From positions 10,354,001 through 10,418,000 of the forward strand of contig OX579641.1 of NCBI GenBank assembly GCA_951230915.1: a stretch of 64,000 nt of DNA, given 5' to 3'. Within the stretch, counting starts at the first letter, position 1; each line of letters begins with the position of its first letter. The DNA is from Antitrichia curtipendula. Taxonomy: Eukaryota; Streptophyta; Bryopsida; Hypnales; Leucodontaceae. The position numbers and the translations under genes are program-made. The notes beneath the pieces are model-generated. The model was not told where the DNA came from and ran no database searches. It worked only from the letters and a program-made list of their open reading frames with translations. Below are positions 4,959 to 56,262 of this stretch, in pieces.

Positions 4959-6980
4959 TAAGCATATATTATAATTGGACAAATCTTATCAATAAGGATC
5001 TTTGTAGAAATTTGAATTATGATAGAACCACCCATTACCAACCAAACATCCATAGTCAACTTGTAAGGTGTAGCTATTTCCAACCAAGGCTAGAACAGGT
5101 TTCCAACTAAAGTTTGGAATGTAATTTCTTCACCTTTACCAAGGTGGGAATTTAAAGTCATGACACATGTCTTGATGTAATGATGTAGTGAGCAAGAAAG
5201 TAGGAAGTACTGAAGTAGTGAGTGGAAAAGTAGTTATGGAATGATCAAAATTGGAAGACTCTGTTATTGGATGTGGTTGAAGCCAATTTTTGGCTTCCAA
5301 AATTCATATTAATTTGAATTTTAGGAAAAAACTCACAAAAAATTGGCAATGCCCGTCATTTCTAGCTTTCTATAGGGCAATAAATTTACACTACCTTCTA
5401 CTACAACAAAACATGTGCATAATCGCTTAAGTGGTCAACTACGGGGGATTCATCAAAGCCTTTACATATTTTTATTTTTAGTTGTCAATGTTGTCTACAA
5501 TGTTTTCTTAGCATTTTTAATTTTTTTTGTTGTGTAAACCATTGCTGACAAACCTCCTATTCATTTTGTAGGCGGGTTCTTTGGCGCAATCAAGCCGTAA
5601 ATAGTCCATGATTACATGGGTTCCACGCGTAATCATGGATTATAGATTCTTCATCTTATGACATTCATCTCGGACCTTTTTGTTTCATCCAATTGTGGAT
5701 TCTTGGCAATAATATATTGACCAATGCTTCTCGTTGTCGTCCATTTTGGTAAAAAGTGCCTCCTTGTCGTGCTCCACCCTTCTCATTGGTTATTTTTTTT
5801 CTAAAATGCCTTCCTTCTCGGGCATTGCTCTATACAAAGTAACCTATTTGGTGAACGCCATGCTGACCCAGACATGGGTTTTTGTAGAGTGTCTCGGGAT
5901 TTGAACCAACATTCAGAGACTCTACGTTGTCTACAACCATGATTGGAGCTATTACCTTTGATTTTTTTCTACAAGTTTTCAAAGCATTGGTGTGGTGTTC
6001 CAAAACTATGATAGATTGAATGTATTCAATTGTATTGCAATAAATAAGAGTGTAACATGCTTTTATAGAATGTTGTTGTAGGAATCATTATCATAACTTT
6101 TAAGGATGTTGAAGAAAAAAGGTACAATTGTTGGTCCAAAAATCGAATCATTTGTGCGTATTCAATTGCAGCATCTTGCGCTGCAGTTTGCATTAGACTT
6201 GCATGCAAATGTGAAAAAAGTTTACACACTTTGACCATGTTTATTGTAAAATATTAGTGCTCAAAATTGAAGAAAAAAATATGTTTTACACCTTACTTTA
6301 TTTGGTATTCAGACTTTCAATTTCCTTTACTCAAATCTTTTTGCACTTCAAAGTTTTGAGGCTTAAATCTTCCTGGTGGAAATTGAGTTCAAAATCTTTA
6401 AAAAATCTTTAAAAAATATATATGTATTAATTTTCATTTGTTAGAAAATTATAAAATAGGACTAGGCACAAGATGGAAGAAAAATTTAATTATTAATAGT
6501 TCTAAAATGGAATTAAAAAATGTCAATCCTAAAGGTGAGATTGTTATACTAGTAAGTAATCTACACCTTGACATAGAAAATTTTGTTAAATTTATTAAAA
6601 AAAAAAATTGAAAAAAAAATGAATCCTAAATGATACTTTTAAGGAAGATGTTACCATTGCCCCCCTAAAAAGACTCTACATTACATATTGTCTTTTACAT
6701 CATTGGAATTGACTAAAGATTTCCATATAAATATAAATATAATCCATGACAAGCAGATCTAAAAATAATAGTTTGGAATTTTATGCATTTTGAAAAATTA
6801 GAGTAAAATTTGACATTATAGAAACTTGCTCAAAATCCTAAAAATTTGGACCTTTGGGAATCAAAGAGGTATGAGTGTATTGCATCTTATTGCATCTCAC
6901 AAATTCTTATCCAAATTGCTATTTTTATTGGTGTTGTTAGTTCCCATTGATAAGATTTGTCCAATTATAATATATGCTTA
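4959..6980. repeat. Segment bounded by a perfect 35-bp inverted repeat
   Basis: Bases 4959-4993 reappear as an exact reverse complement at 6946-6980, beginning TAAGCATATATTATAATTGG on the left. The 1.95 kb between them carries no recognisable ORF. The arms may be the ends of a transposon or two opposed copies of one repeat. A fragment related to the TTAA-element interior lies near 6460-6790. A perfect 11-bp hairpin stem (TCCATGATTAC, 5605-5615 with 5629-5639) is also inside. Confidence 0.5.
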
Positions 6981-7958: not shown

Positions 7959-9786
7959 TTAATCCCTAAAGGATCGAAGCCTTTTCTCCATCAAAACACA
8001 CTCAAAAACGCCACTTCTATTGCAAACTGAAAAAAAACTTTACAACCTGTTTCTTTTTGCATATCTAACCATAGGAACTTACATTAGATTAGTGTAAAAG
8101 TGTATGCAAGAAATTTCAGAAACTTTGACCACATAGATTGCAAGATATTTGCATCTAAAGTGAAGAAAACAAGTCATTTTGCACCTTGCTTGACTAGATT
8201 TTTGAATCTTCTTAACTTAAATTGTACTATCAATTTTGATTTCTTAAGTTTTTATGATGAACACTTGTGTTGAGAATCTAGGAAAAAAAATTCAAGAAAA
8301 AACACTTAATTTTTACCCATTAACCCCTAAAGTCCCAAGGCCATTTTCTGGCCAGAAACCACTGAAAACTGCCATTTTTGCTGCATTCATCCAAGAAAAC
8401 AAAAAAAACATTTTTTTCAAAATCTAACAGTAGGATCTTGTACTTCACTTGTCTAAGATCATGTGGTAAAAATTTCATCAAGTTTGACCGTACAAATTGG
8501 AAGATATCAGCATTCAAAGTTGGAAAAGTAATCTTTTTGAATGCTGTTTTTTCAATTTCAGCTGACTTAGGCCGCCATTTGGAAAAAGAATTTACACTAC
8601 AGACTTTGAATTTTAAAAATTTTGTATTGAAGAATTGAGTTGAGAATTTAGGAAAAAAATTTCAAAAAATAAGCACTTGATTTTCATTTTAAAAAAAATT
8701 GTTAAGTAGATGTAGGTCCAAGATTGAATAAAAAACTAAATTGTTAATAGCTCCAAGGTGGTATTGAAACACAATAATCCCAACAGTGAGATTGTTCTAG
8801 CAAGAAAAAACAACCATGTCTAGCATTTGTTTTTGAAAAATTGTAAAAATTGCATTCAAAAATGAATCCTATAAATTATTTTTTCAGGAAGATACTTAGA
8901 TTGCCCGAAAAACAAGATTGTCCATAACTTTCTCATTATTAGTCCAAATAGAATGAATCAAAGCTTCACACATATATAGAAATATAATATTTTAGGAAAA
9001 AAAAAATTATTTATTTATTTTGGCTTTTTGTGATTTTTTTTGTGCTGCCCACCGAGTTTGGTTTTGGGCTTTTTGTAGTATAATTTTTGCTCCCAGGCAC
9101 CAATTGAAATAAAAATTATATTCTCACAAAGATAATCATTTTTTCTATCTTCAAAAAAAGTTTCAAATAATCAGAACAAAAATTCAGCTTGTAGGTACCT
9201 GTCCAAACTCTCATTTGTCCCCCGAGGGGACAATGGGACTTTAGGGGTTAAAAAATTGTTAAGTAGAAGTAGGCTCAAGATTGAAGGAAAAACTAAATCA
9301 ATAATAGCTCTCAGCTGATAGTGAAATATAATAATTCCCAAGGTGAGGTTGTTCTAGCAAGCAAATACAATCCTATCTAACAATTTATTTTGGAAAATTG
9401 TAAAAATTGCATTAAAAAACAAATCCTATAAGTTAGTTTTTCAAAAAGATGCTTAGATTGTCCATAACTTTCTCATCACTAGTCCAAATATAATGAATGA
9501 AAGCTTCAAACGTAGACAAATATAAATAGTTTTAGAAGGAAAAAAATTTAACTTATTTTGACTTTTGTGATTTTTTGTGTTGCTCGCCAATTTCTATTTT
9601 TGGCTTTTTGTGCCATAATTTTTTCTTGCAGACACCGATTGAAATAAAAATTATATATCCACAAAGCTTTCACAAAACCGCACATCTTCAAAAAAAATTT
9701 AAAAATTAGACTAAAAATTGAGGTCACAAGAACCTACCTGGACTCCAGTTGTCCCCTAAAGGAACAAATGGTCCTTTAGGGATTAA
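7959..9786 (+). mobile_element. Host TTAA element (subfamily B), split by insertion of a relative
   Basis: The ends are TTAATCCCTAAAGGATC at 7959 and the inverted TTAATCCCTAAAGGACC ending at 9786, 16 of 17 bases matching. The element is in two halves, 7959-8323 and 9252-9786, separated by the nested copy 8320-9251. Rejoining the halves at TTAA gives about 900 bp, close to the intact copies. Alignment with the nested copy confirms colinearity: host 8220-8319 corresponds to nested 8590-8690, and host 9252 onward corresponds to nested 8695 onward. No coding capacity. A small subterminal hairpin (CCCCTAAAGG.../...CCTTTAGGG) lies at 9752-9782. Confidence 0.8.
8320..9251 (+). mobile_element. Non-autonomous TTAA-flanked DNA transposon (subfamily B), nested, piggyBac-like
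   Basis: The element is 932 bp including both TTAA borders. The left end reads TTAACCCCTAAAGTCCCA and the right end is its exact reverse complement over 18 bases. It sits precisely at a TTAA within a related copy, so TTAA is the duplicated target. The open frames inside are short and not conserved among copies, so it is non-autonomous. Just inside the right end is a hairpin (GTCCCC.../...GGGGAC). A TTAA target with ends starting CCC matches the piggyBac superfamily. Kolobok also uses TTAA but usually has different termini. The superfamily is inference; the element and its borders are directly visible. Confidence 0.85.
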
Positions 9787-26250: not shown

Positions 26251-27158
26251 TTCATAATTTCTGTCCATGGTTTCTTTTGGACGAAATTTTAATTCCGTTC
26301 TTCCGTTTACCCCCTACTACTTAACTTATCCTAACATAGTCGATTTGAAGCCAAATCCTAAGTGTAATATGTTTTTGGAATCCTCTATCCCTAATCTAGC
26401 AACTTTTGAATCTAACATCTACTTGTACTAATCACGGCTTACTAATCACGCTTAAAGGGCTAATTAAAAAAATCAATGCTACTTAGAGGAAAACACCAAG
26501 GATTAATTCAGAAACTCACCTCTTCACTACCGGACGTACCGGTGTCGTAGATAAGTTCGTCCACGTCCGCGTGCACATCCTCATGCTCCATGGTGGTCCT
26601 TGGTTTGTTTGAATCTCTCCCAAGCTCACCGCTTATTTTAGAAAATTAGTACACCCGTGCAATCTAAACTCCTTCTTTCCTTTCTTCCTTCCCTTTCTTT
26701 CTCCCTCTTTTCTTCTACACTAACACTATTCCACCTAAGCTTTTATGGACGTCTTACAATTCCTCGGAGGTTTAATGTCCCTCCTACCCTCTTACGCGAT
26801 TTATCTTTGTGTCATCCTAATCCACCTTCTAATGATCACTATGAATTCTCAAGATCTCCTTCCCTAAGTCTTCCTAATCCTAGGCCTAGGTCACTATTTA
26901 TTGTCTCTCTCACCTCTTCTCCTATTTCATCCTATTTCCCTCTAATCCTCCTCCATTTTGTGTAGAGCGGATTTTTTGTTGGTGAGAGTGAGACTTTCTT
27001 GTGTGCACGTACGGTGGCGCTCCGCTCTTTTCTTCCTCCTCCCTTTTGTATTTTTGTGCTTATATTTTCCCAAGGTAACTTTTGGCCCTAGTTTTAGTTT
27101 TAGAGCCTTAACCCAGAAACCCCCAAAATACACAACACCCTAGGAAGGCCGTACCCCA
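26251..27158. other. Intergenic DNA, CT-rich in part
   Basis: A pyrimidine-rich stretch (about 26665-26960) gives an open frame of Ser/Leu/Pro composition without features of a real protein. No gene is supported. Confidence 0.3.
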
Positions 27159-27745
27159 CCTGGACTGAATCCACTCCCTGGACTGAATCCGACTCCCTGG
27201 ATGACTGGCCCAACTCCCCGATGACTGGACTAAACCCCCTAATGGCTGAACTCGACTCCCCAATGACTGGACCCAACTCCTCAGACTGAACCCCTCGATG
27301 GCTGAACCCGACTCCCCGGATGACTGGCCCAACTCCCCAATGACTGGATTGAATCCCCGATGGCTGAACCCGACTCCCCGATGACTGGACCCAACTCCCC
27401 GAACTGAACCCCCCGATGGCTGAACCCGACTCCCCGGATGATTGGCCCAACTCCCCGATGACTGGACTGAACCCCCGATGGCTGAACCCGACTCCTCGAT
27501 GACTGGACCCAACTCCTCGGACTGAACCCCCCGATGGCTGAACCCGACTCCCCGGATGACTGGCCCAACTCCCCAATGACTGGACTGAATCCCCGATGGC
27601 TGAACCCGACTCCCCGATGACTGGACCCAACTCCCAAACTGAACCCCTCGATGGCTGAACTCGACTCCCCGGATGATTGGCCCAACTCCCCGATGACTGG
27701 ACTGAACCCTCCGATGGCTGAACCCGACTCCCTGGACTGAACTGG
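27159..27745. repeat. 118-bp tandem array, about five copies
   Basis: The block GGATGACTGGCCCAACTCCC recurs at about 27199, 27318, 27436, 27554 and 27671, a period of 117-119 bp. Each unit is made of shorter related pieces (GATGACTGGAC.., CGATGGCTGAACCCGACTCC). On the minus strand three overlapping frames are open (134-176 codons) and encode a Gly/Ser-rich repeat, because 118 is not a multiple of 3 and the unit lacks stops. Probably non-coding. Confidence 0.8.
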
Positions 27746-31611: not shown

Positions 31612-32541
31612 TTAACCCCTAAAGTTCCATGACTATGTTTTCACTGAAAATGCTCAAGAACTGCCATTTTTAGTACAAGTACCAAATTTTTGAAAAAAAC
31701 TTTTTTTACACATGTAAACGTAGGATCTTGTATTATGTTGACTTGAGAACATGTGGTAAGAATTTCATAAATTTCCCCCCCCTGGATTGCATGATATAAG
31801 CATTCAAAATCATTGAAATTGTTTTCTTGACCCTGCAAAAAAATGAAGAGCTGCACTTCAGAAGCTCACTTTTCTATGAAAAAATGGCCAAAATGGTGGT
31901 GCTTCTTTGGATAATTTTTCCTATACAAGTTGGCTACATGCTTGAAAAATTACACGTTTTTTGGAATTATATAACATATAGGAATAAAATAATAAGTAGA
32001 ACGAAGTAGAGAATGATTCAAAATACAAAATTATTAAGAATTTAGATATGGAATTGAAAAATGTGAATCCCAGTGGTTGAAATGTTGTAAAAAAAAATCT
32101 ATATTCTATGATTTTATTTTATTTTTTAAATATTGAAAATTGAGTAAAATAAAAGATTTCAAAGTTTATTTCAAAGTAGAGAATTCATAAGTGCCCGCAA
32201 ACTAAAACTCTTCCTAAATTTTGACTCAATGGTCAAAGTGGAATGATTAAAAGCTTTCCACGTATATAGAACTCTAAAAAAACAATTTCAAATTTTTGTT
32301 TCTGAAAAAAGTGATTTTTTCTGATCTGCCCAGACTGCTCAGCTGAGAAAAAAAGTAACATATTAGACCATAACTTTTTACTCATATTTCCAAATGTCAT
32401 GAAATTTGGTGCATATGAAAGATATTCCTTGCACTCAATTTCTATTAATATTTCAGCTAAAAATATGCAAATCTCCAATCACAGGTACATGCCCAAATTT
32501 CTATACTGCCAAAAAACGCATGCTCGTCCTTTAAGGGTTAA
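31612..32541 (+). mobile_element. TTAA-flanked DNA transposon (subfamily A), complete
   Basis: 930 bp from TTAACCCCTAAAGTTCC to the inverted GTCCTTTAAGGGTTAA, with TTAA at both borders. The first third is related to the 8320-9251 copy (shared blocks AACTGCCATTTTT, TAGGATCTTGTA, CATGTGGTAA). The rest differs and defines subfamily A. No conserved open frame. Closely related copies are at 33587-34541 (opposite orientation) and 55433-56262. Confidence 0.8.
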
Positions 32542-33199
32542 CTAGGATATTAGATTTGGACATGATTTATTCATGCAAGAATGAAGATGCTATAAAAGAG
32601 AGAGAAAAAAGGTTTACTTTGTCAATCTTTTATTTCATATTTCATTGCAATTTTATTGTTTCTTTCTTATTATAAGATTCTATTTTTTACAATGCAACAT
32701 GCTTACATGCACTCTTCAAATCATGTTAATAAATCTCACAAGGCAATTCATTCAAGATTTCATTCACAAGTGATCCATTGTCATACATTTAGCAAATACT
32801 ACTACTTTCAACTTCAAATGAATCATACTTACGACAATGCTACTCGATTGAGAAAATATAGCCATAAAAATATTGCAAAGAAAAATATGAAGATCATGGC
32901 CCCTTATATTTTTAATACTATGAAGAAATAGATCTAATTGTACTTTGCTTTCCACTCCACATATAAGTGTGCATATTGGAATTAATGAATATATAACCGA
33001 TGGCATAGAGAGATATCACTCTCAATTATGAACCTAACTAACACAACAATAATCAATAGATAAGCTACTATAGATCTAAAGCATTAATAGCTATAACATA
33101 GAATTAAAATCCACTAATTACAATAGTGACATTAATCTAACAATCCAATTTCATTATGTGGAGTGATTTGTTTTGAAGTTTTTTGAAATTTAAGCCCAA
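32542..33199. other. AT-rich intergenic DNA
   Basis: A 91-codon plus-strand frame (32656-32931) has no recognisable domain and a composition typical of AT-rich non-coding DNA. Nothing else seen. Confidence 0.3.
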
Positions 33200-33590
33200 T
33201 AATAAATCCTATACCTAATTTCTTCAAAATAAAACTACAATTGCCCACAAAACAAGATGCTCCATAACCTTCACATCATATGTTCAAATAAAATGAATCA
33301 AATCATTCCATGTAGATAAGAACAAAAATCTATGAGAATTTTTTTTTAATTTTAAAGTAAAGTTTTTGTGGATTGTTTTTTGCCCACCTAGTACTTCAAT
33401 TCTAAACTTTTTAGGAAATAACATTTACTCCCAGGCACCAATTAGAAGAAAATTACATTCCCCCAAAAGCCAATAAATTATTCTATCCTATAATAAGGTT
33501 TCAAAAAAATTTATGCAAAATTAATTTTTTAATAAACCTCAACAAAATCTACTTTGTCCTCTACAAAGACAATGACAATTTAGGGGTTAA
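33200..33590 (+). mobile_element. Right half of a TTAA element (subfamily B)
   Basis: Matches the right part of the 8320-9251 copy, including the TTTACTCCCAGGCACCAATT block, and ends TTTAGGGGTTAA at 33590. The left half is missing. Its terminal TTAA is shared with the next element. Confidence 0.65.
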
Positions 33591-34541
33591 CCCCTAAAGG
33601 ACCAAACACCGTTTTTTGACAACATAGCGTTTTGGGGCAGCTCACCACGAATGGAATTTTTATTTTTTTTCTTTGAAATTTTCATACAAGATGTGCCCGA
33701 GGAGTAGCTTTAGGGCCCAACAATTTTCATAACTTTTGACCACATGGTTAAAAAGTTATGGTATGATATGTACTTTTCATTGTTCGGCGGGCAGCCCGGG
33801 CAGCCAAAAAAACTTCTTTAAAAATCATTTTCTAGAGAAATAAAAATTTGAAATTGGTTCTCTAGATTTATGTGCACAAGGAAAGCTTTGAATCATTCCA
33901 CTTTGATTTATGAGATGAAAGTTATGAGGAATTTTAGTTGTGGGTAGTTTGCGGGTAGTTATGGAATCTCTACTCTAAAATAAACTTTGAAGTCCTTTAT
34001 TTAACTCAATTTTCAATATTTTTGGAAAAAAAATATAAACACAAGGCGTAGATTGTTTATTACAACATCATAATCGTTTGGATTGGCATTTTTCAATTCC
34101 ATAATTAAATCCTTAACAATTTAGTGTTTTGAATCATTTTCTACTTCTTTCTACTTACTATTTTTTTTCCTATATGTTGTACAATTCCAAATGATCTGAA
34201 ATTTTTCAAGCATGTAGCTAACTTGCTTTGAAGAATGAATCCAAAGAGTTACCACCATTTTGGACATTTTTTCATACAAATGTGACCATGTGAAGTGCAG
34301 CTGCCCGTTTTTTCGCAGGGACAAAAAAAGGGTTTTTATCACTTCAAATGCTAATATCTTGCAATCTACACGGTGGAAATTTCTGAAATTTTTTCCACAT
34401 CTTCTCAAACTAGTTTACTACAAGATCCTACGGTTACATGTGTCCAAAATTTTATTTTTTTCAAAATTTGGTACTTGTACTAGAAATGGCAGTTTGGGAG
34501 TGTTTTTTGTGAAAACATAGTCAAAAATCTTTAGGGGTTAA
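33587..34541 (-). mobile_element. TTAA-flanked DNA transposon (subfamily A), complete, inverted
   Basis: 955 bp bounded by TTAACCCCTAAAGGACC at 33587 and CTTTAGGGGTTAA ending at 34541. The internal sequence is the reverse complement of the 31612-32541 copy with moderate divergence. It abuts the preceding half-element through one common TTAA. Confidence 0.8.
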
Positions 34542-40619: not shown

Positions 40620-41390
40620 GGCCCACACGTCTTGTTAAAAATTGCTTTTAGTGACAGGAAAATACATCATCTTTCTAAAAATACAATTTTTTTTCAATAG
40701 GTGTCCAAAAGCAAAAGTTAGCCACTAGGAAGCCAAAAACAGAGATCAATGTGTAGCACATAAAAATCACAAGAAGTCAAAATTAAATTTCAAATTTTTT
40801 TCCTTCTATATGTAAAGCTTGGATTCATTCTATTGAACTAGTGATAAGAAAGTTACAAACAATCTTGTTTTTCAAGCTGTCTAAGCATCTTTCTAAAAAA
40901 ATAACCTAAAAGATTTCTTTTTTAATATAATTTTCACATTTTTTCAAAAAAAATTCTTTGACGGGGTTAAGTTTGTTTGCCAAAATAATCTCATTGTTCA
41001 GATTATTATGTTTTAATTCCATCTTGTTTTAATTTTTCATTCACTCTTGGACCTACTTTTATTTAACAATTTCTTAAAGAATAAATATGTAGTGTCTTTT
41101 TTTGAATTTTTTTTCCTAAACTTTCAACTAAAATAATTTTATTTAATTCAAAGTCTTTAGTACAAATTTTTTCCACAAACTGCAGTAAAAGTCATCTGAA
41201 ATTATAGTCAAGCATTTAGAAAAAACTTTTTTTCTAACTTTGAATGCTAATATCTTTTGATCCATACGGTCAAACTTTATGAAATTTTTATCACATGATT
41301 TGAGACAAGTAAAGTACAATATCCTATGATTAGATTCAGAAATATATATTTTTGGTTTTCTTGGATGAATGCAGCAGAAGTGGCAGTTTT
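40620..41390 (-). mobile_element. TTAA element fragment (subfamily B), both ends missing
   Basis: Reverse-complement relative of 8320-9251. Recognisable blocks are the TTTAACAATTTCTTAA region, the GAATGCTAATATCTTTTGAT region and the final GGATGAATGCAGCAG...TGGCAGTTTT. Terminal inverted repeats are absent on both sides. Confidence 0.6.
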
Positions 41391-42275: not shown

Positions 42276-42525
42276 TTAACCCCTGAGCGCCCCAGGGGCC
42301 AAAATATGGCCTCTTCATTTTCAAAAGATGTCCTTGTTTGACTTTTATAATCTTTTCAATGGTACGGTCAAAGGACACATCCCTTTCCTTGTATCTCTCT
42401 ACATGTGTCTACTACCAATCGGTACGGTCAATTAGTGTGGATCTTTTCTTAGGTGATAGTTTAATTGGAATGAGTACAGAAGGGTTTGAATTTTTGTGAA
42501 CATGGGTTGGGCGCTCAGGGGTTAA
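42276..42525. mobile_element. 250-bp TTAA-flanked MITE with a distinct terminus
   Basis: The left end reads TTAACCCCTGAGCGCCC and the right end is its exact reverse complement (17 bases). There is no coding capacity. The borders are TTAA as in the 930-bp family, but the inner sequence and inverted repeat differ, so it is a separate family. It lies about 165 bp upstream of the first MSA core of the CDC20 promoter. Confidence 0.8.
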
Positions 42526-43059: not shown

Positions 43060-45298
43060 TGCAGACAATGGCTAAGGCCTTTAAGACTCCGACCAAGAGT
43101 GTGAGCTGCGGGAAGTGGGAGAGCTCGGCATTGAGGGAGAATGTGAGTCCCGTGCAGCTCAAGAAGAAGACGCCCAAGGCCAAGACCCCTGGCAGAGCGG
43201 TAATATCCCTGTCCATTGTCAGATTTGTGGAATTTCAATATTGCTTTTAGCTGTCATTGAACTCCACGCCTTGCTTGTTTCGCTTAAGTCGTGATCTGGT
43301 ATATTGGCTAGAGTACGTGCTAGATTGAGATAATGTCATTGAAACCCTAGTCTCATCGAGCAGACATTACCAATCAATAGTGATACGAAGAAATGTTCTG
43401 CATAGAACTAGCCTTGGCTTTGCGTTTCCGATGTTCTGTTTCATCAGCATGTGTTGAGCTGCAATCTCACATGTAATAGACAGGTTCAGAGAACGTCCAA
43501 ATTGGCTAGGAACGTCATTCGTGGCTATGCATAGCAATTTATTTTTGCCTCTTGATCTGAGATTAAATTTCGGACCTGAGATTAGAATACTTACTCAACC
43601 TCCAATCTTCCTCTACAGACCGACCGCTTCATCACCGACCGCAGTGCCATGGATTTCAGCGTGGCTAACTTCCTGATGACCAAAGAGAATTCGTCAGTGG
43701 ACATGATCTCCCCTACCAAGGACGATTACAAGAAGCAATTGGCTGAGAGCCTCTTGAACAGTAATGGTCAGACACAGAGCCGCATCTTGGCCTTCAAGCA
43801 AAAGCCTCCTCCTCCTCCCGAAGGCTTCGTGAACGGTCGCGCGACTCTGTACTCACAAAATGTGGCTTCAGGGCAGACGAAGCCCAAGAAAACTTTCCGT
43901 CACATTCCCCAGGCGCCTGAGAGAACTCTTGATGCCCCTGATATGCTGGATGACTATTACCTGAACCTGTTGGACTGGAGCTCCAGTAATGTGCTGGCGG
44001 TCGCCCTGGGTATGACCGTGTACTTGTGGGATGCCACCACGAGCTCGATTGAGGAGTTGATGACAGTCGAGGAAGAAGGACCCATCACCAGCGTTTCGTG
44101 GGCCCCAGATGGTCAATATCTGGCCATAGGGTTGAACAACTCGACTGTACAGCTCTGGGACTCAACCTCACTTCGTCAGGTACATAAATGATGACCGTCT
44201 GTAATGATCTTGAAGTATTGTGATAGTGAATTACTTGCGGAATGTTGGTTTTTGACTTCTGCATTGACACTCTTTTGATTGTGAAATATATGTGGACTGT
44301 TGCTTTGTGGGTTTTGTATCTTAGCTTTGTGATTTGATTCACGCATGGAAAATTCTATCTCGTGGCTTGTATATAATTTCAGCTCTGTGATTTTGACTAT
44401 ATGTGGATCATGTCTTTGTGGCTTCTGAATTTGAGGTTAATATTTTTTTGAATCTGTTGTTGCAGTTAAGGACATTGAAGGGCCACTCTGCCCGTGTTGG
44501 TGCTCTGGCCTGGAATGGGCCCACCCTTGCAACTGGCGGGCGCGACAACATGATTTTGAACCATGATGTGAGGATCAGGAACCATGTCATAGGGACAATG
44601 GCTGCACATGAACAGGAGGTGTGCGGGTTAAAGTGGTCGCCCTCGGGTCAGCAGCTCGCCAGCGGTGGCAATGACAACTTGTTGCACATCTGGGACGCAG
44701 CCGCTGCTTCGTCTGCTAATGCCAGCCCCCTTCACCGTCTTGACGAGCACCAGGCTGCCGTGAAAGCCTTGGCGTGGTGTCCCTTCCAGAGCAACTTGCT
44801 TGCATCAGGCGGCGGTACCGCTGATCGGTGCATCAAGTTCTGGAACACCCACACTGGTGCCTGTGTTAACAGCATCGACACCCGGTCGCAGGTGTGCGCT
44901 CTCCAGTGGAGCAAGCATGAGAAAGAGATTTTGAGCTCACATGGGTTCAGCCAGAATCAGCTTTGTCTGTGGAAGTACCCATCCATGGTGAAAATGGCTG
45001 AATTCACAGGGCACACTTCTAGGGTGCTGCATTTGGCTCAGGTGGGTTGACATTTTGCTTGCAATCTCGCTTGACTCTTTTGCATGTTATACTACTGTCC
45101 ATTTCAATATTTAAACATTCTGTGCTAATATCTCCTTCGCTTGTGCAGAGTCCCGATGGATACACAGTGGCATCGGCTGCGGGCGACGAAACTTTGAGGT
45201 TTTGGCAAGTATTTGGAGCGCCGGAGACGAACGTGCCTACACAGAAGCGAACCAAGGAAGTGGCAAGTGCGCTGACATCTTTGACGAAGATCCGATAA
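43050..45298 (+). CDS. CDC20: Cell division cycle protein CDC20, APC/C co-activator
   Basis: CDC20 activates the anaphase-promoting complex and recruits mitotic substrates; it is the target of the spindle checkpoint. Exons are 43050-43199, 43619-44179, 44466-45041 and 45149-45298, all phase 0 with GT..AG introns of 419, 286 and 107 bp. They give 478 residues, close to the usual plant length. A C-box-like DRFITDR is at residues 52-58 (plants usually have DRFIPxR), KEN at 72-74 and the RILAF box at 105-109. Then come [13 protein letters not shown] and a seven-bladed WD40 propeller ([59 protein letters not shown]). The protein ends in the Ile-Arg tail that docks on the APC/C. The first ATG has G at -3 and +4; two more in-frame ATGs follow. 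The absence of the C-box proline is the one oddity. MSA elements upstream suggest G2/M expression. Confidence 0.95.
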
Positions 45299-48364: not shown

Positions 48365-49061
48365 TTGTAGCTAGTAGTTGCATACAATCTAGATGGTTGC
48401 TTATCCAAATTGGAATATGGATCTGGCCCTTAGCCAAACAAGGGATAAATGGCTTCTTACAACAGTCACACTAAATGCTTGTTAGAAATCTGTTTCATCT
48501 TTTTTTTATTTTTTTAATTGCCCTTTAACCCAAATCAAGCAATTGGACAATAACTTCAACTCCATTGGATACAGGAGTCTAAAGTGAACCCCTAAATGCC
48601 TAAATTGCATGTTTTTGACAACATGACAATTATAGGCAGCTCACTACAAATGGAATTTCTGTTTGTTTGTTTGAAATTTTCACACATGTAGACAAGTATA
48701 GAAGTATAACAAAAGGCATGATTTCTTTGGGTTTGCAATACCTCTTTGATCCACATTGAACATAATCCAAATGACTGCATTTTGAATTTTTTGTTGTAAC
48801 ATTTTGTTTTTTTAGGAATGGCAATTACTCACAACTAGTAGTTGCATACAATTTAGATGGATTCTTATCCAAATTGGGATATAGATCCCATCTTTATAAC
48901 TTCAAATCCAAACAAGGGGTCAAATGGCTTCTACAACTCACTCAATACTTGTTGGAAATGTGTTTGCTCTTTATTTTATTTTTTTGCAACCTATTATCGG
49001 ATTAAAGTCAAAAAATTGGACAATGACTTCAACTGCATTGCATACGTGAGTCCAAAGTTAA
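48365..49061. repeat. About 230-bp direct duplication with filled and empty TTAA site
   Basis: Bases 48371-48588 and 48835-49061 are direct, diverged copies. Shared landmarks are CTAGTAGTTGCATACAAT, TTATCCAAATTGG, TTGGACAATAACTTCAACT and AGTCTAAAGT. In the first copy the end is followed by a TTAA-element terminus (CCCCTAAATGCC). In the second the corresponding position is an uninterrupted TTAA (49058-49061). Confidence 0.6.
48585..48720 (-). mobile_element. Terminal fragment of a TTAA element (subfamily A)
   Basis: The sequence after the border CCCCTAAATG matches the start of the 33587-34541 copy: TTTTTGACAACAT, GCAGCTCACTACAAATGGAAT and a GAAATTTTCACAC block. The border is TGAA, a degenerate TTAA. 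An isolated opposite-type terminus, GTCCTTTAAGGGTTGA, occurs at 49481-49496. Confidence 0.6.
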
Positions 49062-49531: not shown

Positions 49532-50915
49532 TTAATCCTTAAAGGTTTGAAGTTTTATAATGAATATTTTAGAAGTTTGGGTATGTTCCTATGATGTCAA
49601 ATTTTATTTCAATTTCCTGAAATTTATTTTGGAAGTCGGAAAATGTGTTGTCTTTATGGAAATATTATTTTGATTTCATTTGGAGCTTGGTAGAAAAAAC
49701 TATGCCTTAGAAGCACAAAATGTTCAATTTTGGGCAACAAAATAAACCCACAAAAATTTTAAAATTTTAAAAATCTTATAGTATATATTTATGTCTTTTG
49801 AAAAGATTTGGTTCATTCCATTTGGATAAGTGATGTGAAAAATATGAAGTGCCTTGTATTGCAGGCAATTGAAGAATTTTTTATAAAAATTGATGTATAG
49901 GATTCATTTTCAAACTCAGTTTTCATAATTTTTCAAAACTAAAACATCCCTAGGACATAGATTATATGCTACAACAATTTGACTACTTGGATTGACATAT
50001 TTCAATTCCATTTCAGAACTCTTAAAAATATTATTTTTCCTTCCATCTTATATCTACTTCTACACAACAATTTTCTCAACTTCAAAATACTAGTCTCCAA
50101 AATAAGGCTAATTTCCTCATCTATATTTATTTTTTAGCAAATTCAACCATAGGGGCCTTTAGTTAACTTATTAGTGTACATCCTCCTAAAATTTCAAAAT
50201 AAAACCCTTATCAACTGCAAGATCATAATACTTGGATTCTAAAAAGAAGTAATTCAACACTTTCCAAATGGTTAGATTTCATATTTCAAACTTTTACCCA
50301 AAAATATGTTGATCCTACTACTTGCAACTTTGCATAATATGTTGAAGAAATAAATTGAAAACACATGTAAAATTTCAACAAAAAATATCTCATATTCATG
50401 TTTGAAAAAAATAAGAAGAAGAAAGAAGTAGATAATGGTTTGAAATATAAAATTGTTAAGAACTTAATTATGGAATTGAAAAATGCTGACCTCCAATGGT
50501 TTTAATGTTGTTATAAACAATCTACATTCAATACTTTTATTTTTTTTCAAAAATATTGAAAATTGAGTTGAATAAAGGACTTCAAAGCCCGCTACAGTGT
50601 TTATTTTAGAGTAGAAATTCCATAACTTTTGGCAAACAAAAACTCCACATAACTTTCATCTCATTAATTAAAATGAAATGATCCAAAGCTTGATATATAT
50701 ATATATCTAAAAAAACAATCTCAAATTATGTTTTACACAAAAAAAAAATTTAACCTTGTAGTCAAAAGTTATGAAAATTATTGCACCTTAAAGCTACTCC
50801 TTAACCACATTTTGTGTGAAAATTTCAAAGAAAAAAAATTAAAATTCTGCTTGTAAATGGATGACCAAAAAATCCTATGTTGCCTCAAAATGCTACTTGG
50901 TCATTGAGGAATTAA
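49532..50915. mobile_element. Composite of two opposed TTAA-element pieces
   Basis: It begins TTAATCCTTAAAGG at 49532 and ends with the degenerate inverted form TCATTGAGGAATTAA at 50915. The left part (to about 50300) is an inverted subfamily-B sequence. The right part (about 50395-50915) is a subfamily-A sequence in the forward direction. The total of 1384 bp is longer than a single copy. It is best explained as two fragments joined end to inner end, or a rearranged copy. Confidence 0.55.
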
Positions 50916-51905: not shown

Positions 51906-53130
51906 CTATTGAATTTCTTGTTCCAAAATGCTAAGTCGCCGCATTCCAATGTCTTGGAGAAGTCGACGATGGGTAGATGATGGAAGAGCCTTGGTAAAAA
52001 GATCAACAAGATTATTTGCTGATGCAATTTTCTTAATTTCAAGTATTTTGTCAGTAATCAAATCATTAGTATAGGTGAAATATTTTGGATCAATCCATAT
52101 AAGGCACGTTGTAATTTAACGCCACGATATTTGCCTGAGATAGATGGACTTGGACTGGTGGTTTCAAGACCAGGAGGAACTTTCATATAAATATTCGCAT
52201 GAAGTGAGCCATAAAGATAGGCTGTCACCACATCCATGAGACACATCTCAAGATAGGCATGAACTGCCATTCCTAGAAGATATCGGAAAGTGATGGAATC
52301 CATAACTGGAGAATAAGTAATATCATAATCAATACCAAACTTTTGTGTGAAACCTTGAGCAACCAAACGAACTTTGTAACGAATAATATGACCCTTGTCA
52401 TTGCGTTTGCGTACAAATACCAATTTGTATCCAAGAGGTCAAGTAGTAAGATTGTCCATGATAGGTCCAAACACTTGTCTTTTGTTCAAAGAAGTATACT
52501 CCTCCTTAATAGCAGCTTTCCACTTTGGCCAATCTAAGCGACACATTGCTTCTTTAATAGTACGTGGTTCGGGATCATCTTTTTCGCAAGAAAGATTTTT
52601 CACAATCATAGAAATGAATGGTTCATCAATGTCAATACTTGCTCTGTCCCATACGTGACCAGTACCGGAGTACATCACAGATAATTCTGTGTTCAACTTT
52701 GACATTTCTTCTTGAGAAGTAGACGGATGAGTAAAATTGGCAGTGGTTGCTGTAGGTAGAGAATGATTAGCAGCATCAAAGATTGCCTTGCATTTACGTG
52801 GTTGCTTATCTGGTCCACGAGTCCGTTTGCCCATATGTTGAGGAGTAAGTAAGGTTGTAGTCTCTGGTACAAAAACTCGAGCAGGAAGATTTCGAGCTTC
52901 ATTCAATGGAGTTTTTGTAATTCGTGGCGCATCATTAAAACCATCAGGTGTCTGATCCGCTATCTTTTGCAAATGCAAAATTTTGGCAACTTCATTTTCG
53001 GCCAAAGATGTCCGTGGATCAGGATTTGATGTAAGTGTTTGAGGTGCTTGAAAAGTAAGACTTGTAGAAGTTTCTTGAATAGATGCTGCTCCTTTCAAAG
53101 ATGGAAATACGTCTTCTTCTTGTTTTCAAG
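51906..53130 (-). pseudogene. Ty1/copia pol remnant with internal deletion
   Basis: On the minus strand 53098-52442 reads as the linker between integrase and reverse transcriptase (AMCRLDWPKWKAAIKEEYTS). After an in-frame TGA at 52439-52441, the reverse transcriptase N-terminal part follows (VRKRNDKG, VRLVAQGFTQ, YSPVMDSITFRYLL, MDVVTAYLYGSL). It stops at the LYGL motif near 52090. It then jumps directly to the RNase H C-terminal tail (PKYFTYTND, NNLVDLFTKALP, DIGMRRL) ending at a TAG at 51906-51908. The YVDD catalytic segment and the RNase H core are deleted, and gag, protease and integrase are missing. A dead, non-mobile fragment. Confidence 0.85.
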
Positions 53131-55432: not shown

Positions 55433-56262
55433 TTAACCCCTGAAGGATCATGAGTATGTTTTCACCAAAAAAAACGCTCCAAAACTGCCATTTTTATTAC
55501 AAGTACCAAATTTTTGAAAAGAAACTTTTTTTTGACACATGTAACCATAGGATCTTGTAGTATGGTGACTTGAGAACATGTGGTAAAATTTCAGAAATTT
55601 CTTCCACGTGGGTTGCAAGATATTAGTGTTTGAATTGACGTAAACCTTTTTATTGGCCCTACAAAAATCCAAGCAATTGCACTTCAAAAGCTAATTTTTC
55701 TATGAAAAAATGTCCCAAATGGTGGTGCTTCTCTAGATTCTTTTTTGTATACAAGTTGGATACATTCTTGAAAAATTACACATCATTTGGAATTGTACAA
55801 CATATAGGAAAAAAATAGTAAGTAGAAAGAAGTAGTGAATGATTCAAAATACAAAATTGTTAAGAATTTAGTTATGGAAGTGAAAAATGCCAATCCCAAT
55901 GGTCACAATGTTATAATAAAAAATCTACATCTTATGATTTTATTTTTTTCAAAAAATATTGAGTAAAATAAAGGGCTTCAAAGTTTATTTTAAAGTAGAA
56001 AATTCATAAGTGCCCGCAAGCTAAAACTCCTCATAACTTTTGACTCATTGATCAAAATGGAATGATTAAAAGCTTTCTATGTATATGTAACTCTAGAAAA
56101 TAAATTTTGAATTTTTTTTTGTTGATAAAAGTAATTTTTTTTAATTGCCAAGACTGCCTATTTGGAGAAAAAAAGAACATATTAGGCCACAACTTTTTAT
56201 TCACATTTCCAAATGTCATGAAATTTAGTGCGTATGAAAGATATTCCTTTAGTTCATAATTT
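55433..56262 (+). mobile_element. TTAA element (subfamily A), right end missing
   Basis: It begins TTAACCCCTGAAGGATC at 55433 and is colinear with 31612-32541 through GTATGAAAGATATTCCTT near 56245. The last 110 bases and the right inverted repeat are absent. The open frame 55448-55687 (-) also appears in the copy at 34151-34520 and is a by-product. Confidence 0.75.

Follow-up and report, generated by a model that had tools for sequence, protein, structure and literature searches.

Nested TTAA elements, very probably non-autonomous piggyBac derivatives, and related transposase genes in a moss-like genome

Where one short transposable element lies inside another, the question arises of which transposon superfamily placed it there and whether genes able to move it are found in the same genome. 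Such a pair is present in the window, i.e., the whole analysed stretch of 64,000 nucleotides. The nested element occupies positions 8320 to 9251 (forward strand) and measures 932 bp including both TTAA. Its left terminal inverted repeat (8320-8337, forward strand, TTAA at 8320-8323) and its right one (9234-9251, reverse strand, TTAA at 9248-9251) are complementary at 18 of 18 positions, and a 17-bp palindrome, TGTCCCCCGAGGGGACA, is located just inside the right end (9216-9232). A perfect 18-bp inverted repeat that begins with TTAA and has its arms 50 to 3000 bp apart was found once in the window and in none of 100 Markov-1 shuffles. The interrupted host consists of a left part (7959-8323, forward strand), which carries TTAA both at its outer border and where the insertion took place, and a right part (9248-9786, forward strand), with a joined length of 900 bp. 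Its arms (7959-7973 and 9772-9786) are complementary at 15 of 15 positions and at 16 of 17 once extended by two bases. The sequence-only reading had described an insert with a perfect 18-bp repeat inside a relative that has TTAA borders and 16/17 matching ends of its own; the coordinates of the insert proved exact, and the same values were obtained for the host.

Removal of positions 8320 to 9247 in silico restored a host of 900 bp whose two parts meet at a single TTAA, just as the rejoining of the two halves at exactly one TTAA had been proposed. The rejoined host and the 932-bp nested element align over their full lengths, with 76.8% identity over 875 ungapped columns (672 identical). To the right of the junction, ungapped homology between the two restarts immediately (8693-8906 against 9250-9463, 82%); to the left, it is reported up to 8313, with the TTAA 6 bp further on. 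The nested element's interior had also been offered as a picture of the uninterrupted site. Here, CATTTTAAAAAAAATTG in the nested element stands opposite CCCATTAAAAAATTG in the rejoined host, and TTAA sits at the equivalent place in both, but the letters at the junction are imperfect, and with a 4-base alignment gap on each side the site is recognisable rather than letter-perfect.

The size of the target duplication was followed in further copies from the genome. Searching with the nested element yielded 11,857 first-look candidates; as no more than 40 of these were scored, this figure was not taken as a copy number. The matches listed comprise 40 long ones, the query included, at 88 to 100% identity, along with 3 short ones; the 39 other long copies among the matches listed are 88 to 94% identical. 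Flanks were read for 20 of these 39, and the raw count gave TTAA at the left end in 20/20 and at the right end in 17/20. Nine copies of the 932-bp family (L045-L053) share identical flanks, which indicates one insertion multiplied within a larger dispersed repeat, and they were counted as a single event. The resulting 12 independent insertions carry TTAA on the left in all cases and exactly placed on the right in nine; of the remaining right ends, one lost a base before TTAA (L041), and two are mutated (L037 and L044). The expectation that flanks are always TTAA was thus borne out for the left ends, but on the right it gave way to shifted or mutated ends. For ten complete pairs (eight genome copies plus the nested and host elements of the window), the base beyond TTAA agreed in one pair on one side and in none on the other, as chance predicts, and it can be concluded that the duplication is no longer than TTAA. 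A longer target duplication, which had been named as counter-evidence, was not found in these ten pairs. The palindrome TGTCCCCCGAGGGGACA recurs in 14 of the 20 copies (11 exact, three with one change); among the six misses, L041-L043 were read in the opposite orientation, and L036, L037, and L052 have altered letters at that place.

Stretches matching four family queries made up 11.4% of the window; in 302.6 kb of sequence, a sample biased toward transposase loci, their share was 6.9%. At least one family stretch was present in 17 of 26 sequences, while five shuffled windows gave zero matches. Another homology search of the 302.6 kb gave 121 matches, of which only the 30 places that reach a terminus were counted, and TTAA was present at 27 of these. 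Without the eight query ends the count is 19 of 22, where four ends belong to L029 and L031, which are nearly identical, and the three termini that deviate read TTAG, TGAA, and GTCA.

Within the window, two further complete members of the family are flanked by TTAA on both sides, namely element A (31612-32541, forward strand, 930 bp) and element B (33587-34541, reverse strand, 955 bp). A and B share 77.5% identity, and their identity to the nested and host elements is 72.5 to 76.5%. The right end of another copy (33076-33590, forward strand) shares its terminal TTAA at 33587-33590 with element B, i.e., the two insertions abut. The remaining members are a copy at 55433-56249 (forward strand) with the left end TTAACCCCTGAAGGATCA, a fragment of the nested family at 40653-41390 (reverse strand, 73% over 786 columns), and, from the homology search, fragments at 6214-6662 (forward strand), 49574-50074 (reverse strand), and 50404-50915 as well as a short one at 48587-48686. 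A 250-bp TTAA element at 42276-42525 (forward strand) belongs to a second piggyBac group; its ends, CCCCTGAGCGCCC, equal those of the transposase loci L019 and L028, so that this group, too, is represented in the window by a short derivative. Apart from these elements, an open reading frame resembling a piece of a Copia-type polyprotein was recognised by eye at 52439-53098, and on the reverse strand at 27100-27685 several open reading frames overlap that encode a single peptide with internal repeats, in all likelihood a tandem repeat.

A TTAA duplication together with ends that start with CCC had been taken as diagnostic of piggyBac. This did not withstand a comparison with shuffled windows, in which TTAAC pairs at 11/16 or better average 3.06 per window (maximum 11), against 7 in the real one. 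Since shuffled windows give comparable end pairs, such ends were rejected as the sole proof of piggyBac, and as they are insufficient alone, a link to a transposase was needed to make the case.

The assembly, 400 Mb in size, was searched with the DDE_Tnp_1_7 profile. Among 906 first-look candidates, scores were obtained for 116, and all 116 lie above the curated cut-off. No stop occurs inside the match in 72 of the 116, and the longest open frame among them comprises 1,261 aa. At locus L025, an open frame of 966 aa, with the start codon placed mechanically and introns ignored, contains one Pfam domain, DDE_Tnp_1_7 (PF13843), at 1.6e-77 and matches the solved chains of piggyBat (1.1e-21) and piggyBac (2.9e-20). 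Three Asp residues in the motifs TVDE, TDNFF, and RGVD align with piggyBac 6x67 and are invariant in 9/9 aligned rows, six of them from this genome; we take these to be the positions of the catalytic triad. A C-terminal Cys/His pattern is visible in eight of the nine rows and absent in L002, and PF13842 was not reported for L025, L001, and L002. Protein searches retrieved 27 relatives, of which the four that are organism-labelled are all animal proteins, and 199 relatives, of which 120 were listed, none with an organism label. As this type of search detects only relatives with exact shared words, absence from other plants cannot be concluded from it. In a tree of 40 rows (six from this genome, 34 picked from the lists of relatives), the six transposases group with 17 jgi/ena/lgn database proteins (100/99), in contrast to the three named animal transposases, which fall outside this group. 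The six sit in three well-separated branches.

Together with their flanks, 25 of the 116 scored transposase loci were read, 20 in a first set and five later. Fourteen of the first 20 are bracketed by TTAACCC...GGGTTAA, with the nearest pair 5.0 to 7.0 kb apart, compared to 9 of 1000 shuffled loci. The criterion, a match at 7 or more of the 10 inner bases, was set after the ends had been seen, and the shuffled loci are devoid of the many real TTAACCC ends of the genome, so that the control is lenient and chance bracketing likelier than 9 in 1000. This leniency does not explain the recurring end pairs or the agreement of the arms. The same or nearly the same pair is found at the same place around the domain in L009/L017, L010/L018, L013/L024, and L019/L028, and the terminal arms agree at 16/16 positions in L015 and at 15/16 in L020. 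Under the strict test, six of the 20 loci have no bracketing end pair: L011 and L012 show a strict right end only, L014 and L022 have a left-type end upstream with no right end found, and at L016 and L026 a bracketing end was not found. A loose pairing of any two TTAA, which also produced non-CCC pairs at L009, L013, L016, and L026, was dropped for the stricter test; at L016 and L026 the loose pairs arose from long inverted repeats. These repeats (L016:1-829/6533-7361 and L026:2609-3404/9106-9901) are at least 796 to 829 bp long, are 99 to 100% complementary, and flank piggyBac transposase domains. Their arms extend to the edge of the fetched stretch, so that their ends and any TTAA would lie outside it, and the two loci may belong to a piggyBac group whose terminal repeats are very long.

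The element at L025 measures 6,990 bp and has the ends CCCCTAAAGGACC and CCCCTAAAGTTCC. It recurs at L029 (99.2%) and L031 (98.3%), with TTAA on both sides and differing outer flanks. A TGA interrupts the domain in L029, and the frame in L031 is shorter (588 aa), leaving L025 as the only one of the three that reads through. L029 and L031 are among the five loci fetched later; of the other three, L030 and L032 have one CCCCTAAAGG end each and L033 has one end of a different sequence, while TTAA-CCC ends on both sides were not found at these three. Just 3' of the transposase frame, the stretch L025:5914-6325 is self-similar at offsets of about 45 bp and is longer in L031; it resembles a minisatellite located within the element.

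The short elements are connected to L025 mainly by elements A and B. The ends of A match those of L025 over 127 bp on the left and 218 bp on the right, at 74.8% each (E values of 1.4e-16 and 1.8e-34), and those of B over 388 bp at 69.1% (4.3e-36) and 124 bp at 71.0% (9.4e-13). Compared directly, the nested element and L025 share two short stretches, 67 and 33 bp long, at one end, so that A and B serve as bridges. With the first 18 bases left out and letter shuffles as the reference, the left ends of the nested and host elements match the right end of L025 directly (z of 8.7 and 11.9, respectively), and the other end matches weakly (4.5 and 3.7). The latter values barely exceed those for the ends of four other transposase elements, which reached a z of at most 3.3 against the six short-element ends tested, and the L009, L015, L019, and L021 types, with no end above this value beyond the terminal motif, were rejected as masters of the nested element. 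A transposase gene with the same ends had been suggested as a target of the search. DDE_Tnp_1_7 genes with related TTAA-CCCC ends were indeed found, and each end of L025 agrees with the 18-bp terminus at 16/18 bases, but the exact terminus was not seen on any transposase element read.

As the ends of A and B match L025 and both resemble the nested pair, the nested and host elements are very probably non-autonomous (MITE-like) derivatives of piggyBac-superfamily transposons in a moss-like genome, and the assignment to piggyBac made from the ends alone gains support from the transposase genes with related ends and from the end sequence shared via A and B. The superfamilies Kolobok and Sola3 also duplicate TTAA, and the short elements could in principle use one of these, their piggyBac-like ends having converged on TTAA-CCCC. 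We consider this exceedingly improbable, given that both ends of A and of B match both ends of an element with a piggyBac transposase over 124 to 388 bp, far beyond the terminal motif. A refinement rather than a contradiction of the piggyBac reading is that the direct master is another piggyBac lineage near L025, possibly lost, with L025 as a cousin. On balance we lean slightly toward this version, as subterminal identity to L025 is only about 70 to 75%, compared with up to 94% between the nested element and its copies, and flanks were read for only 25 of the 116 scored loci. Against it, L025 and the short elements have the same first nine bases inside TTAA, and A and B display the same end asymmetry and homology to L025 at the same distance from the terminus. 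L025 itself is a relative of the master of these elements.

By analogy with piggyBac biology, full-length piggyBac elements elsewhere in the genome would encode the transposase, and this enzyme would recognise CCCCTAAAG-type terminal repeats together with subterminal DNA. It would cut the short element out and insert it by a staggered attack at TTAA, which would leave TTAA on both sides, and one copy would have inserted at a TTAA within an older relative. What is seen directly comprises the TTAA borders, the host junction with its one TTAA, the many copies, the transposase frames within TTAA/CCC-ended elements, and the end sequence common to short and long elements; present-day activity, like the choice of the transposase element that moved the nested and host copies, is inferred.

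Another reading holds that the sequence does not stem from a land plant or that the transposons are contamination. The host is read here as a moss, and this placement rests on one short protein, CDC20-like; its tree of 12 rows joins Micromonas to Taxus and Nymphaea, which makes this tree a poor guide to the species. The closest named relative of the protein among the matches listed (120 of 2,731) is nevertheless Physcomitrium patens at 85%, followed by the fern Ceratopteris at 80%, and with Physcomitrium and four further relatives it forms a supported group (96/95). Moreover, the scored transposase matches are spread over C1-C10, which are 25 to 56 Mb long, and C218, and we regard a foreign origin as very improbable. 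The window itself is located on C9 (25 Mb) of the 400-Mb assembly, and the CDC20/Fizzy-like gene lies at 43649-45050 in at least two open pieces.

The piggyBac superfamily is known above all from animals, and geneticists working on animals rely on piggyBac as a workhorse. With Trichoplusia ni piggyBac and Myotis piggyBat, the elements described here share DDE_Tnp_1_7 with three aligned Asp, the TTAA duplication, ends starting with CCC, and short inverted repeats. In contrast to both, they reside in a moss-like host, and their open frames are long, with 966 aa in L025 and a maximum of 1,261 aa. Short TTAA-flanked elements in a plant have precedents in Wuneng and Microuli, which come from rice. 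These two are TTAA MITE-type elements, and in the excerpts available from PMC2872659 no transposase genes are linked to them, unlike the present elements with their transposase genes of related ends. According to the same excerpts, the coral CMITEs likewise combine a TTAA duplication with CC[C/T]T-type ends, a noncoding interior, and insertions of element in element. The coral elements differ in their length of about 100 bp, compared to about 900 to 950 bp in a land plant here, and in that a transposase-bearing relative whose ends both match A and B is present here (PMC2872659). With 5.0 to 7.0 kb, the transposase elements are longer than T. ni piggyBac (2,472 bp), yet within the animal range of 1.23 to 9.51 kb given in the accessible part of PMC10813416.

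The sequence-only reading had further stated that piggyBac is not normally reported for land plants. Judging from the accessible parts of the papers, this needs qualification. A survey including 80 land-plant species has PiggyBac among the superfamilies found in all groups (PMC4438587) and thus for land plants, and piggyBac elements are mentioned for plants in general terms (PMC8086355, PMC10813416), but the fern and grass genome papers contain only traces, i.e., 1,230 PiggyBac copies totalling 122 kb in Ceratopteris (PMC6890710) and one 75-bp piece in Stipa (PMC8319324). Two further leads, PMC10619864 and PMC12531127, were discarded because in the portions at hand they matched on the word 'piggybacking' only. 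Among the titles listed from the literature searched, which was mostly open-access and without bioRxiv preprints, none concerned a piggyBac native to moss. The animal piggyBac has served to excise markers in rice and, as of 2017, was untried in Physcomitrella, as far as the excerpted text of PMC5505980 states.

The mechanism and the superfamily are already known, and this is ordinary piggyBac transposition; new are the host and the abundance. The surprise lies in the scale and freshness of piggyBac in a moss-like genome, and grounds for interest are the 116 scored transposase domains (906 candidates), the 98 to 99% identical full-length copies at different sites, and a MITE family in 11% of the window. 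Tentatively, and with somewhat less than even confidence, we suggest that mosses may have their own deep, diversified, and still-moving piggyBac clade with a high copy number and intact transposase genes, which standard plant repeat annotation has missed. The domains, copies, and MITE coverage named above raise the question of whether piggyBac was kept by plants from early times or received sideways, as well as that of whether plants possess a transposase of their own that inserts and removes DNA without scars. If such a native moss clade holds true, it would supply seamless TTAA transposition from a source native to plants.
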